From Candidatus Bathyarchaeota archaeon (GTDB lineage Archaea; Thermoproteota; Bathyarchaeia; 40CM-2-53-6), in contig VBBP01000052.1 in assembly GCA_005884195.1 (NCBI GenBank), positions 1-64,000 of the forward strand: 64,000 nt of DNA, given 5' to 3'. Positions 5,242-58,423 of the stretch are shown piece after piece. The position numbers and the translations under genes were made by a program. Below the pieces are notes generated by a model, which was not told the DNA's origin, ran no database searches, and saw only the letters and a program-made list of their open reading frames with translations. The number at the start of each line of letters is the position of its first letter. Position 1 is the stretch's first letter.

Positions 5242-6411
5242 GTGAGTGAGACCCAGAAACTTCTGATGTTGCCAGGTCCCACCAATGTCCCGCCTCGAGT
5301 GATGAGGGCAATGTTGAAGCCCCTTATCGGACACAGGGGCCCAGAATTCAAAGAACTGTTTAACAAACTTCTCGGCAAGACCAAGAGGGTCTTCGAAACC
5401 AAAGGAGACATGTTCATTCTTACTTCTTCCGGCACCGGAGCTACCGAGGCAGCTCTCCAGAACATAACGGAGGACGGTGACAAGATCATCGTTAACGTGA
5501 ACGGCTTCTTCAGCGAACGGCTCGGCGAAGCCATCAAGGCCTACGGCGGAAAGCCGATTGTTCTGGGTTCAGAATGGGGTCAAGCGCCCCGCGTAGAGGA
5601 TTTCAAGAAAATCCTGAAGGCAAATTCTGATGCTAAGGCAGTTGCAGTCGTCTACAACGAAACCTCTACCGGTGTAACGGTTAGGGCGCTTGAGGAGCTT
5701 GGAGAGCTTTGTGCTGATCATGATATGCTCTTGATCGTGGATGCGATCTCGATTCTTGGCGGGGATAAGCTGCCTGTTGACGATTGGAACGTCGATATTT
5801 GCGTGACTGCGAGCCAGAAATGTTTGATGACCCCGCCCGGTTTGGCCTTCATCTCGGTTAGCGACAAGGCGTGGACGAAGATAAAGTCGAAGAAGGTCAG
5901 TCGGTCTTACTACCTTGACCTCGTAATGTATCAGAAGTATATCGAGGACGGCTACACGCCCTTCACACCGGCGGTTAGCCTGCTTTACGCTCTGAACGAG
6001 GCTTGTGACATGATACTCGAAGAGGGATTGCCGAACCGCTATGAACGACACAAGATCTGTGCGGAGGCGGTCTACAACGGAATGGAAGCTATGGGTCTCG
6101 GGCTGTACGCCGAGAAGGAATCCCGATCCCACACGGTTGCTGCAGTTAACAGTCCTCTGGGCATGGATGAGGGGAAAGTGAGGGAACTCATAAGAACAAA
6201 GTATGGAATAGACTTTGGAGGAAGCCTCGGAAAAGCGAAAGGAAAAATGTTCAGAGTTGGAATCATGGGTAACGTGGGATCATCCGACATCATGACCACA
6301 GTCGGCGCGATAGGATCCGCGACGTCGGAACTTGGTTTCAAGGCGAAGATTGACGAAGGGTTAGAAGCAGCAAGAGAAACCCTATCAAGACTACCGGGAA
6401 GAGTGAACTGA
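5242..6411 (+). CDS. Class V pyridoxal-phosphate aminotransferase (alanine-glyoxylate / serine-pyruvate type)
   Basis: The 389-residue protein starts at GTG. It opens KLLMLPGPTNVPPRVMRAM, typical of the AGT/SPT subgroup. It has the phosphate-binding LTSSGTGATEAAL, the cofactor-ring Asp in LIVDAISILGG, and the Schiff-base lysine in TASQKCLMTPPGL. Members interconvert glyoxylate/glycine or pyruvate/alanine or serine. In archaea without a classical pathway they may supply serine or glycine. It lies 4 nt before the FKBP gene and the two are probably one operon. Confidence 0.9.
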   Translation: MSETQKLLMLPGPTNVPPRVMRAMLKPLIGHRGPEFKELFNKLLGKTKRVFETKGDMFILTSSGTGATEAALQNITEDGDKIIVNVNGFFSERLGEAIKAYGGKPIVLGSEWGQAPRVEDFKKILKANSDAKAVAVVYNETSTGVTVRALEELGELCADHDMLLIVDAISILGGDKLPVDDWNVDICVTASQKCLMTPPGLAFISVSDKAWTKIKSKKVSRSYYLDLVMYQKYIEDGYTPFTPAVSLLYALNEACDMILEEGLPNRYERHKICAEAVYNGMEAMGLGLYAEKESRSHTVAAVNSPLGMDEGKVRELIRTKYGIDFGGSLGKAKGKMFRVGIMGNVGSSDIMTTVGAIGSATSELGFKAKIDEGLEAARETLSRLPGRVN

Positions 6412-8178: not shown

Positions 8179-8766
8179 TCACGGCTTCGCTTGCTTGAGA
8201 GGTTGGTAGACGAGTTTCACTACTCCGGATTTGAACTGCCTCACGTCTTTCAGGCTCAACGGGTACCTTTGAGCTAGGTCCTTGAACTGGGGTCTCCCCT
8301 TGCCCAAGACGACCGGATAGACAACGAGCTGATACTCGTCTATGAGTTCCGATTTCATCAACGCGGACACGAGGGTAGCGCTCCCGTAGATCACCATGTC
8401 TCTCCCCGGTTCCTGTTTCATCTTTCTGACCGCCACTGCTGCAGCTTCCTTGACCAGGCTCGCCGTTCCCCAGTCGCCCCAGGCGACCTGTTTCAGAGAC
8501 CTCGAGAACACGAACTTAGGCAGTTTGTTGATTCTTTCAGTGATGACTGGGTCGTCGTTCTTGGCCATGGGCCAGTAGCTGGAGAATTCTTCGTAGGTCA
8601 GGCGTCCCAGCAGAATGGCGTCGACACTGCTTATGATAGTGCGTGCGTATTCCCCGAATTCTGTTCCTTTTACGAACCCGGGGTATACGAACCAGTCCAG
8701 CTCGCCGTTCGGCCCGGACACGAAACCGTCGAGAGACATGACGTTGGAAACAATTACTCTTCGCAT
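8179..8766 (-). CDS. Dihydrofolate-reductase-fold protein (RibD C-terminal domain family)
   Basis: I place the start at the ATG giving MRRVIVSNVMSLDGFVSG, the normal N terminus of this family; ten extra residues upstream look untranslated. The core shows ILLGRLTYEEFSSYW, KFVFSRSL and VIYGSATLVSALM, the NADPH-binding loop. Such proteins are NADPH reductases of unknown substrate, related to the pyrimidine reductase of riboflavin synthesis. The protein has about 195 residues. It is the upstream partner of the nucleotidyltransferase. Confidence 0.85.
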   Translation of the reverse strand: MRRVIVSNVMSLDGFVSGPNGELDWFVYPGFVKGTEFGEYARTIISSVDAILLGRLTYEEFSSYWPMAKNDDPVITERINKLPKFVFSRSLKQVAWGDWGTASLVKEAAAVAVRKMKQEPGRDMVIYGSATLVSALMKSELIDEYQLVVYPVVLGKGRPQFKDLAQRYPLSLKDVRQFKSGVVKLVYQPLKQAKP

Positions 8767-21734: not shown

Positions 21735-22703
21735 TTAGAAAAGGTGCTTGTCGATGATCTCAGCGGGTCCACCTGGCTCCGAGACGAAGATGTTGTTTGT
21801 AATCTTGCTGAGATTTCTTCGGACCGACCGGGTAGCATCTGGCGTAGTGTTGACGAACACCGATGGGCCAGTGTCTAGCGAGAACCAAACCGGGAGCTCG
21901 TCTTCCTTTCGAAGTCTTCTCACCTCTCGGATGATTTCGATAGATAGTGAACTGAGCAGAATCAATCCCTCCTTACCTGTCATGGTAACTGCATGCAGGT
22001 TCAACGTGTCTTCTTCAGCTAGCTTTCCAATGGATTCCACGTCCTTCTGTGAAATCGCACGTTTCATCCGTGGAAGAATACTTCTAAGGTAAACTAGTCG
22101 TGGTTTGAAAAATGGGGACTTGACAGCGTCAGCGTGAGCGCTATCCGTTTTGATTTCTGACTCTATCGGAACAATTATCGTTCTTAGTTTGATGGAGCTA
22201 GCAGGTGCAAGCTCTTCCGCATAGGAACGACCGTTTCTGTTCGCGTACCAAATGGAGAAACCCCCGGCTAAACTGCGTGAAGCAGAACCAGCGCCCAATC
22301 TAACAACTTCAGAAAGCTCAGGCGTCTTGATGTCCAGATCCAACGCTCTTGCCGTTGCGAGTCCCAACGCCGCGAATCCAGAGGCTGAGAATCCCAGTCC
22401 CTTGCCCTTGACGTCAGGGTTTCTGGATTCTACTCTTGCTTTCACGGACCTCAGAGGAGACGAGTGTCGGAGATGGTTAACGACCGCCAACACTCTATGC
22501 TGTTCCTTCCGTGAAGGTGACTTGCCGTTTATCCTGATACGATCATCAGCGAACTCTCGGCTGAACGCTACTGTCGTAATCGTGGGAAGCGCTTTCATGC
22601 ACACGGATATGCTGTCGTGAAATGGCAGCCGCAGTCTCTCGTTCCGGAGACCATGGTATTTCACGAGCCCTTGAATCGCATAAGCGCGAGCGGAACTCTT
22701 CAA
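21735..22703 (-). CDS. Mevalonate-pathway decarboxylase (diphospho- or phosphomevalonate decarboxylase)
   Basis: This 322-residue GHMP-fold enzyme has IQGLVKYHGLRNERLRLPFH near the start, the ATP loop GKGLGFSASGFAALGLA, GSASRSLAGG, and the catalytic-Asp motif SLDTGPSVFVN. The IQGLVKYHG form resembles the haloarchaeal phosphomevalonate decarboxylase as I recall it, so the substrate (mono- or diphosphomevalonate) is uncertain. It provides isopentenyl units for ether lipids. It sits 9 nt after G1P dehydrogenase in the lipid operon. Confidence 0.85.
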   Translation of the reverse strand: MKSSARAYAIQGLVKYHGLRNERLRLPFHDSISVCMKALPTITTVAFSREFADDRIRINGKSPSRKEQHRVLAVVNHLRHSSPLRSVKARVESRNPDVKGKGLGFSASGFAALGLATARALDLDIKTPELSEVVRLGAGSASRSLAGGFSIWYANRNGRSYAEELAPASSIKLRTIIVPIESEIKTDSAHADAVKSPFFKPRLVYLRSILPRMKRAISQKDVESIGKLAEEDTLNLHAVTMTGKEGLILLSSLSIEIIREVRRLRKEDELPVWFSLDTGPSVFVNTTPDATRSVRRNLSKITNNIFVSEPGGPAEIIDKHLF

Positions 22704-22712
22704 TGCCTTACC

Positions 22713-23786
22713 TTACCCAATGACGCCTGTAGTCCGAGCGACCTTCTCCGCCGCAGCCTCAGCCACTCCCGTCTCACCGAGAATAGTATATCGTTCTGGA
22801 CGCAGACTATGAGCCAGCGTCAGGGCCCTCACCAATTGTTCAGAGGAGACGTTAAGCTCCTTAGCAGTTGAGGGCGCTCCAATCTCCTTCAGAAATGCTC
22901 GAATTGCTTCCCAGTTAGACCCTTGGAGATAAGCGCACAAGATTGCGCCAACACCGGTTCTCTCCCCGTGCAGACTCGTCTCACCGGCCACAATGTCAAG
23001 GGCATGACTGAACAAGTGTTCCGACCCACTGCAAGGTCTGGAGCTCCCCGCTATGCTCATTGCCACACCGCAACTTATGAGCGCCTCTACCACTGTTCTG
23101 ACGCCTTCGATGTTTCGCTTGAGGATCTCCTTAGCGTTCTTGGTAACAAGCTCAGCGCTCATGAGTGCGAGTTCGGCTGCGTAGTCGCCGTAGTACTCGT
23201 TCTTCAGTTTGTGGGCGAGCTGCCAGTCCTTAACAGCTGTAAACTTGGCAACGATGTCCGCGCAGCCTGCCGCCAGCAAGTTGTAGGGTGAATCGGCTAT
23301 GACACCGATATCGGTGAGGATTGCGACCGGTGCTTGTGCCCTGATCGAGTAGGGCCTCGAGCCGCCCTTGATCGAAGCGTAGGGACTTGCGATTCCGTCG
23401 TGGCTTCCTGCTGTTGGAATGCTCATGAAGGGAACAGAGGCTTTGGCTGATGCGAGTTTTGCCACGTCGATATCCTTGCCGCCACCAACGCCTAGGACAA
23501 TCGAAGCCTTTGTGCGCTTAATCGATCCTATGACCTGAGTTACGACCACCTCAGTTGATTCTTTGACTATAACATGGTCCACTTTCAGACCGGCCTTTAC
23601 AACTGATTTCGCAACAGGTTCGCCAGCAATAGGATAAGTTAGTGGTCCTGAAACTACGAGGGCCATACCGGTGTAGCCAAGTCGTGAGCAGACCTCCCCG
23701 ATTCGGCCGAGAACATTCTTGCCCACTATGACCTCTCGTGGAAGCTGCATGTAGTGTAAGGACTCGTCTGCTTCCATGGCTTTCAC
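22713..23786 (-). CDS. egsA: sn-Glycerol-1-phosphate dehydrogenase
   Basis: The 357-residue protein has the NAD(P) loop LGVGGGKDIDVAK and SIPTAGSHDGIASPYAS. The Zn ligands are Asp in GCADIVAK and His in SEHLFSHAL and LHGERTGVG. It reduces dihydroxyacetone phosphate to G1P, the stereo-defining step of archaeal lipids. Its ATG overlaps the DUF2070 stop by 4 nt (ATGA), implying coupled translation. Confidence 0.95.
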   Translation of the reverse strand: MKAMEADESLHYMQLPREVIVGKNVLGRIGEVCSRLGYTGMALVVSGPLTYPIAGEPVAKSVVKAGLKVDHVIVKESTEVVVTQVIGSIKRTKASIVLGVGGGKDIDVAKLASAKASVPFMSIPTAGSHDGIASPYASIKGGSRPYSIRAQAPVAILTDIGVIADSPYNLLAAGCADIVAKFTAVKDWQLAHKLKNEYYGDYAAELALMSAELVTKNAKEILKRNIEGVRTVVEALISCGVAMSIAGSSRPCSGSEHLFSHALDIVAGETSLHGERTGVGAILCAYLQGSNWEAIRAFLKEIGAPSTAKELNVSSEQLVRALTLAHSLRPERYTILGETGVAEAAAEKVARTTGVIG

Positions 23787-44641: not shown

Positions 44642-45322
44642 GTGGATTTCGCAAGTGAAAGGGAAAGAATGGTCCAAGCGCTCACCGCGGAAGGACTCCT
44701 CAAAACCCGCGAGGTCATCGACGCGATGAGAAAGGTTCCCCGGGAACTCTTCGTCTCTGTTCACATGCGTCAGTACGCCTACAATGATACCCCATTGCCA
44801 ACGGATCATGGCCAGACGATCAGTGCGCCACTCGGCTGACCAGCCGGGCGTTACATGGTGGCCATAATGGACGAGGCATTGAAGCCAAGACACGGGATGA
44901 AGGTGCTTGAAGTGGGCGCCGGAAGCGGATACCATGCAGCCACGATCGCAGAAATAGTCGGCGATAAGGGACACGTCTACTCGGTTGAGTACATCGACAA
45001 ACTGGTAGAGATCGCAAGGAAGAACCTGAGTCGAGCAGGATACGCTGACCGGGTCACACTGGTCCAAGGCGACGGATCGTTGGGTTACGCAGAGCGAGCT
45101 TCATATGATAGAATACTCGTGACGGCCGCCGCTCCCAGGATTCCGCCCCCCTTACTAGAACAATTGAAACCGGACGGAATCCTAGTTATTCCTGTAGGTG
45201 GAAGAATGTTCCCCCAAGAACTTGTCCAGGTCAGAAAGAGGCTTGATGGGACCTTGGACCGGGAATCCTTGGGAGGAGTCGCATTCGTCCCTCTAATCGG
45301 GAAACACGGCTTCAGCGACTAG
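44642..45322 (+). CDS. pcm: Protein-L-isoaspartate O-methyltransferase, split by a 21-nt BHB intron
   Basis: Exon 1 (44642-44831, GTG start) encodes DFASERERMVQALTAEGLL to YNDTPLPTDHGQTISAP plus one base. Exon 2 (44853-45322) completes HMVAIMDEALKPRHGMKVLE and VGAGSGYHAATIAEIVG, the SAM site. Unspliced, the frame reads SAP-Leu-Gly-TGA. Removing 21 nt gives SAP-HM-VAIM, exactly the archaeal Pcm motif, and a 219-residue protein of normal length. The enzyme methylates isoaspartyl residues for repair of aged proteins. Without splicing only a 65-residue fragment lacking the SAM fold would be made. Confidence 0.9.
44832..44852 (+). other. Candidate mRNA intron (21 nt) with canonical bulge-helix-bulge
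   Basis: Central helix CGCC (44826-44829) with GGCG (44847-44850). Bulges are AC|T (44830-44832) and TT|A (44851-44853). The inner helix CGGCT/AGCCG (44833-44837, 44842-44846) is closed by loop GACC. The outer helix is GTG (44823-44825) with CAT (44854-44856), one G-U. All four central and five inner pairs are Watson-Crick. The segment contains an in-frame TGA at 44837-44839. Confidence 0.85.
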
Positions 45323-57853: not shown

Positions 57854-58423
57854 ATGAAGCCCACGGGACTTCAAGGTGAAGCGGAACTTATCGGAACCCG
57901 CCTCATCGTATGGGACGCCAAGACCGGGCTTGACATTTACCGGTCGGGATTCTTCGGAAAACCAGTCGGAATACCAAAACCGAAGCCAGACCAAGACTTC
58001 GACGTCCCATTGTTGCTCGACCTTATGGAAGGACTCTATCTCCTTGAGCATGGCAGAATATCCGTCGTTGATGGAAGGACCAAAGAACCTGTTCGCAAAT
58101 CACTCTTGTTGAGAGAAGCAAGAGAGACGTATCGTGGATTCAGTCAGGCGTACCAAGTGTACAAAGACTTGAGAAACAAGGGCTACATCGTCACCCCTGG
58201 AATAAAGTTCGGCGCTGACTTTGCCGTGTACGAACATGGACCTGGGATTGATCATGCTCCCTTCATCGTCTCGGTCGAAGATCCCGAGTCCATCATGGGG
58301 CCCTTCGAGGTAGTCCGAGCTGGAAGGCTGGCAACTACCGTTAGGAAGCAATTCATCATAGCGATCCCAGACACTAAGCTGGACGAGATACGATATCTCG
58401 TCTTTAGCTGGTTCAAGGCCTAA
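57854..58423 (+). CDS. endA: tRNA-splicing endonuclease
   Basis: The 189-residue protein is a complete single-unit enzyme. An N-terminal domain is followed by the catalytic domain with Tyr126 (ADFAVYEHGPG), His134 (IDHAPFIVSVED) and Lys165 (TTVRKQFIIAI). These residues cleave both strands of BHB motifs, leaving 2',3'-cyclic phosphates. Subunit type cannot be settled from one gene: full catalytic residues suit a homotetramer or the catalytic chain of a heterotetramer. It would process tRNA-Lys and the pcm transcript in this window. Confidence 0.95.
   Translation: MKPTGLQGEAELIGTRLIVWDAKTGLDIYRSGFFGKPVGIPKPKPDQDFDVPLLLDLMEGLYLLEHGRISVVDGRTKEPVRKSLLLREARETYRGFSQAYQVYKDLRNKGYIVTPGIKFGADFAVYEHGPGIDHAPFIVSVEDPESIMGPFEVVRAGRLATTVRKQFIIAIPDTKLDEIRYLVFSWFKA

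Follow-up and report, generated by a model that had tools for sequence, protein, structure and literature searches.

A predicted bulge-helix-bulge pre-mRNA intron in the pcm gene of a Bathyarchaeota archaeon and of other archaea

Why is the only pcm gene found in the genome of a Candidatus Bathyarchaeota archaeon (assembly GCA_005884195.1) halted by a stop codon inside a conserved motif of its product? The gene occupies positions 44642–45322 of the 64,000-nucleotide stretch of contig VBBP01000052.1 that was analysed (hereafter, the window; all features described here are on the forward strand). It was delineated from two open frames read from the DNA and from a match to PF01135 (E = 7.1e-63), which covers both parts with a single TGA inside and identifies the host gene as pcm. 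The first frame, from a predicted GTG start at 44642, ends in GQTISAPLG and then meets the in-frame TGA at 44837–44839, which would be reached in an unspliced transcript; the second ORF (155 aa) opens at an ATG at 44855. The sequence-only reading from which this work started had claimed that the frame stops just after Ser-Ala-Pro and that excision of 21 nt would restore both the frame and the SAPHM motif exactly. The former was confirmed to the base and the latter, in silico, for the segment 44832–44852, the removal of which joins CCA C|AC ATG and yields SAPHMVAIM. The predicted intron is in phase 1: the last base of exon 1 (44642–44831; PF01135 positions 3–59) is the first base of the His codon in SAPHM, and exon 2 (44853–45322; PF01135 positions 61–208) contains the ATG (44855–44857) for the Met of this motif. 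The joined Pcm was aligned with a solved archaeal Pcm (2yxe) over residues 1–218, with no gap at the junction. A PF01135 search of the window's own genome found no second intact pcm, because the other four matches are partial (19.7–40 bits, methyltransferase); this speaks against the earlier concern that this copy might be decaying beside an intact one.

The 21-nt segment can be folded with its flanks into a bulge-helix-bulge (BHB) motif. A central helix of 4 bp is formed between CGCC (44826–44829), which lies within exon 1, and GGCG (44847–44850), which lies within the intron, and has a 3-nt bulge at each exon–intron border (44830–44832 and 44851–44853), with predicted cuts at AC|T and TT|A. 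The inner helix consists of CGGCT (44833–44837) and AGCCG (44842–44846), closed by a GACC loop (44838–44841), and the outer helix pairs GTG (44823–44825) with CAT (44854–44856), the latter within exon 2. These assignments follow from the BHB solution, and those of the helices also from the covariation analysis described below. The motif had been called a perfect BHB beforehand; every element named at that time is present where it had been placed, but the outer helix of 3 bp is the weak part of the motif, because the minimum free energy structure draws it in a slipped register.

The fold energy of the segment is ordinary for its composition (−15.2 kcal/mol, z = −0.35; an equally good fold in 63 of 200 shuffles). 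When the letters of the insert were shuffled 200,000 times with the boundaries fixed, four central and three inner pairs arose in 352 cases, and the exon–intron–exon pattern matched the window once and none of 100 shuffled windows. As a control, a chance strict BHB solution was found in 8 of the 114 uninterrupted pcm loci, and each of the eight would remove conserved residues from an intact protein. A group I or II self-splicing intron, which is a large catalytic RNA, was ruled out by the size of the inserts (20–48 nt) and by the lack of any Rfam family match within the window.

The sequence-only reading had also pointed to pcm genes of relatives, with or without the insert, as a check. When Pcm was searched for in 60 relatives as well as in the window's own genome, breaks near PF01135 profile position 60 appeared throughout the genus and also in genomes farther away, and the intron is present in 17 of the 18 genomes of the genus, the remaining locus being cut by a contig end. 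Among the first-read loci, all 26 that are interrupted and carry the searched motif have exactly one strict BHB solution that restores SAPHM (20–48 nt), and five further loci have an uninterrupted SAPHM motif. A gapped exon–intron pattern run against public species genomes (84,980 species) identified 110 stretches, namely 88 from Bathyarchaeota/Bathyarchaeia, 8 from Asgard archaea (Baldrarchaeota, 3; Jordarchaeia/Jordarchaeum, 3; Wukongarchaeum, 1; Njordarchaeum, 1), 6 labelled Thermoproteota archaeon, 2 labelled Crenarchaeota archaeon and 6 from further archaea; no bacterial genome was among the 110. A single strict solution was obtained for 108 of them, whereas two show one mismatch in the inner stem. 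Because three of the four central pairs are prescribed by the pattern, the free test is limited to the fourth central pair and the inner stem.

At the class level, a Pcm match (E ≤ 1e-20) was found in 208 of 256 genomes. Among the 175 class genomes read as sequence, 109 carry the intron (106 strict and 3 with one mismatch), 61 have continuous genes only and 5 have truncated or otherwise broken genes, although this proportion should not be taken as an unbiased frequency, since interrupted genes were preferentially fetched. The insert site is identical in all 109 genomes (phase 1, same His codon), one of which (G218) contains a continuous copy as well as the intron-bearing one. In the search of the Asgard phylum, Pcm was matched in 204 of 227 genomes, only some of which were read as DNA; 12 genomes with an intron and a solved BHB were found, most of the listed Pcm proteins are continuous, and one further gene (genome G344) is broken at this position too, although its inner stem is imperfect. 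A wider phylum draw gave Pcm matches in 262 of 398 genomes, and the intron was found in 6 of 16 followed-up genomes picked mostly for low Pcm scores (once in f33, four times in f34 and once in f43). An earlier tally, over the pcm loci retrieved up to then, gave 114 continuous and 240 non-continuous ones, the latter comprising 228 strict solutions, 5 with one mismatch, 1 imperfect (L256), 5 cut by contig ends and 1 with a frameshift elsewhere. This last locus (L310, genome G120) is an intron-less pcm with a frameshift beside a G run, approximately 40 residues past the intron site; it was left out of later counts, as were five weak loci. In all, the same site and phase recur in more than a hundred species. 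The intron is spread over many Bathyarchaeia, further families of Thermoproteota and several groups of Asgard archaea, more widely than could be known from the window alone.

The comparison of 131 distinct intron segments revealed strong pairing constraints, although the covariation and codon counts that follow are inflated by the relatedness of the sequences. Inner pairs 1–6 are formed in 100, 98.5, 100, 96.9, 90.8 and 87.6% of the segments, versus 63.6, 73.0, 84.5, 71.8, 62.6 and 42.8% when the partners are dealt anew, and a slide of a single base drops inner pairing to 31.7 or 51.0%. The first inner pair varies in identity (CG, 64; TA, 53; GC, 11; TG, 2; AT, 1). The second central pair, in which position 3 of the Ala codon is paired with an intron base, is GC in 122 segments, AT in 8 and GT in 1, and the Ala codons of the intron-bearing genes are GCG (123) or GCA (8), while their Pro codons are CCA (109) or CCT (22). 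At 68 intron-less sites, by contrast, all four Ala and all four Pro codons are used. Because the Ala and Pro codons of the intron-bearing genes are restricted in this way, the exon sequence is constrained by the RNA fold as well as by the protein. The outer helix is less well kept, its first pair being formed always, the second in 39.7% and the third in 20.6% of the segments.

The inserts (20–48 nt) break the frame in all of the 131 segments. One hundred have lengths that are not multiples of three, and the remaining 31 all contain an in-frame stop, versus 9.4 expected from interior shuffles; the stops differ among inserts (TGA, TAA and TAG). An absolute rule that every pcm intron breaks the frame is softened, however, by three metagenome proteins (P0003, P0004 and P0012) with a stop-less in-frame insert of 7–8 aa exactly at the intron site, where the annotation treats it as normal protein sequence, and it is conceivable that some unspliced forms are translated. 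In a database search with the joined protein, 100 of the 120 best matches are proteins of 151 or 155 aa that start at or just after the exon 2 ATG. One continuous Pcm (P0001; 210 aa, 72% identity) was also matched, which may represent an intron-less relative and is therefore no decisive sign of a spliced transcript.

The genome encodes candidate enzymes for the removal of such an intron. A gene for a catalytic-type subunit of the splicing endonuclease EndA, with both catalytic and N-terminal domains (PF01974, 93.5 bits; PF02778, 50 bits), is located in the window at 57854–58423, 12.5 kb from pcm. A second EndA-family gene (45.1 bits) is found on contig C36 (8020–8259) of the same genome, which contains two PF01974 genes in all and one gene for the ligase RtcB. 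The presence of two EndA genes suggests a hetero-oligomeric EndA, a form of the enzyme that has been tied to relaxed mRNA motifs (PMC2738675, in the part available). Fourteen tRNA matches above the family cut-off were found in the genome, 12 of which span 85–118 nt, and ARAGORN reported one tRNA in 371 kb of it. Many of the tRNA genes therefore probably carry introns, although a long variable arm may account for the length of some matches. In one of the eight loci examined (L414), the removal of 24 nt at a BHB-like site leaves a tRNA of 76 nt.

From these sequence comparisons, it is very likely (a probability of roughly 0.93) that 44832–44852 is a BHB pre-mRNA intron in the only pcm found in this genome, one that EndA and RtcB are predicted to remove. 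The conservation of the site, the covariation of the stems, the frame-breaking nature of the inserts and the EndA and RtcB genes of this genome strongly support this reading, as proposed earlier from the window. The pcm gene would be transcribed as a pre-mRNA containing the insert, which EndA would cleave at AC|T and TT|A; RtcB would then ligate the exons, and the excised 21-mer would presumably be circularised. Translation of an unspliced mRNA would end after 65 aa and miss everything that exon 2 encodes, so that active Pcm would depend on splicing. A splicing-dependent switch on protein repair is a possibility on this account.

Four rival readings were considered. If the TGA were decoded as an amino acid by readthrough or recoding, Pcm would contain seven extra residues; the window insert, with its length of 21 nt, its one TGA and a frame that goes on beyond it, would allow this, as would the three metagenome proteins with stop-less inserts. 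Such an insert would break up the conserved SAPHM motif, however, the stop codons vary among the genomes, and codon reassignment cannot restore the frame in the 100 of 131 inserts that are not multiples of three. Neither the covariation of the stems nor the codon limits in the exon would be explained, and we regard readthrough as very improbable. Fission of the gene, in which exons 1 and 2 are translated apart (exon 2 from its own ATG) and the pieces assemble, is equally improbable. It would fit the ATG at the Met of SAPHM and the many database proteins of 151 or 155 aa, but this Met is conserved in uninterrupted Pcm as well, those proteins are automatic gene calls, and fission has no need of a BHB with conserved cuts, covarying stems and codon limits.

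Translational bypassing systems are exemplified by T4 gene 60 and the mitochondrial byps, and bypassing requires matching take-off and landing codons. Short gene-interrupting hairpins such as those of pcm, often just before a stop codon, resemble bypass elements, and the ribosome might be imagined to hop across them. The triplet before the ATG in the unspliced RNA, however, consists of the last intron base followed by AC, and this base varies (final dinucleotides of the 131 segments: AA, 61; AG, 30; AT, 13; AC, 13; TT, 8; and others); the CAC|T forms, the window included, would put Leu there. The exon–intron pairing of the central helix, moreover, suits EndA and not hopping, and bypassing thus has hardly any likelihood. 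Just as little can be given to pseudogene decay or an assembly error in the window's copy, which might be suspected because the window belongs to an assembly of 72 contigs. Interruptions at this very position occur in 109 of the 175 class genomes and in 110 public contigs from independent assemblies, which argues against the assembly error that had been named as a possible refutation; the flanking protein is conserved across the interrupted copies, and the genome search turned up no intact pcm beside this one. Readthrough, decay and assembly error are all strongly disfavoured by the comparative sequence data.

The distribution of the BHB intron raises the question of its history. The fewest intron-state changes were 16 on a quick tree of 150 Pcm proteins and 7 on a careful tree of 67 chosen rows. 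In f11, f21 and f22, intron-less rows are nested among intron-bearing rows on the 150-protein tree, which looks like clean loss. The proteins of Jordarchaeia, Njordarchaeum and genomes G340 and G341 cluster with intron-less Asgard rows (95/90), outside the Bathyarchaeia group. Extra intron-bearing pcm copies on short contigs from Wukongarchaeum (L125/L359) and Njordarchaeum (L360) are nested in the Bathyarchaeia family f21; the Wukongarchaeum copy and the second Njordarchaeum copy may reflect transfer, or binning error and contaminated bins. A single clade of all intron-bearing rows was marginally rejected (p = 0.039), and a clade of Asgard and core Thermoproteota rows was not (p = 0.10); the histories of the gene and the intron do not match in any simple way. 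The intron is probably old, with several clean losses, and may have moved between lineages or been gained more than once.

The search for additional mRNA introns covered the window and another 372 kb of its own genome, of which 4 kb overlap the window. In this genome, strict BHBs joining open frames often arise by chance, and none of the three candidates examined closely was convincing: the segment at 8359–8404 of L389 lies between adjacent membrane-subunit genes, that at 5878–5919 of L399 is antisense to real genes, and that at 22643–22744 of the window lies between two separate genes. A strong BHB-like fold with 8 inner and 3 outer pairs is also present on the forward strand at 22832–22876 of the window, antisense to the gene at 22713–23786, and is probably due to chance.

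The breadth of the pcm intron over two archaeal phyla and its position inside the conserved SAPHM motif are its most notable features. Gene callers miss it, as seen in the 151- and 155-aa pieces that dominate the best database matches, and pcm is therefore misannotated in such genomes. With this pattern of presence and absence, the gain, loss and transfer of introns in Archaea can be tested directly. It is tempting, though doubtful, to combine two further claims, namely that the intron predates the split between Asgard archaea and Thermoproteota and that it persists because splicing by the tRNA machinery gates Pcm production. Were both true, an mRNA intron would date back to the archaeal stem near which eukaryotes arose, and Pcm would be made only when EndA and RtcB act, linking protein repair to tRNA-splicing status.

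We found no pcm intron in a literature search of open-licence papers, with preprints outside its scope, in agreement with the sequence-only reading, which knew of no earlier one; pcm is not named in the available parts of PMC6379350, PMC12397907, PMC4090602, PMC11291895, PMC12558985 and PMC13149111. According to the part of PMC7714728 available, one archaeal mRNA BHB intron, that of cbf5, had been reported earlier as of 2020, and the corresponding part of PMC2738675 gives cbf5 as the only case in which mRNA intron splicing is confirmed, others being predicted in its references 39 and 50. The intron described here is best read as the second conserved archaeal mRNA BHB intron after that of cbf5, which would make tRNA-type splicing of mRNA broader, and perhaps older, than recorded. 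It is not itself a cbf5 pre-mRNA intron, since the host gene is pcm (PF01135). The cbf5 introns occur in Desulfurococcales and Sulfolobales and have motifs mostly described as unconventional BHBs (PMC2738675, in part), whereas the pcm intron is found in another gene and other lineages and keeps a 3-4-3 geometry in which the outer helix is weak. In Haloferax volcanii, the 5′ UTR of HVO_1309 is processed at a BHB and provides an EndA substrate in mRNA, as predicted for pcm, but that site lies in the 5′ UTR (PMC7714728, in part) and the pcm intron inside a coding motif. The BHB introns of archaeal tRNA and rRNA share the fold of the pcm intron and presumably its enzymes; they reside in non-coding RNA, whereas the central helix in pcm is built from the codons of a conserved protein motif.
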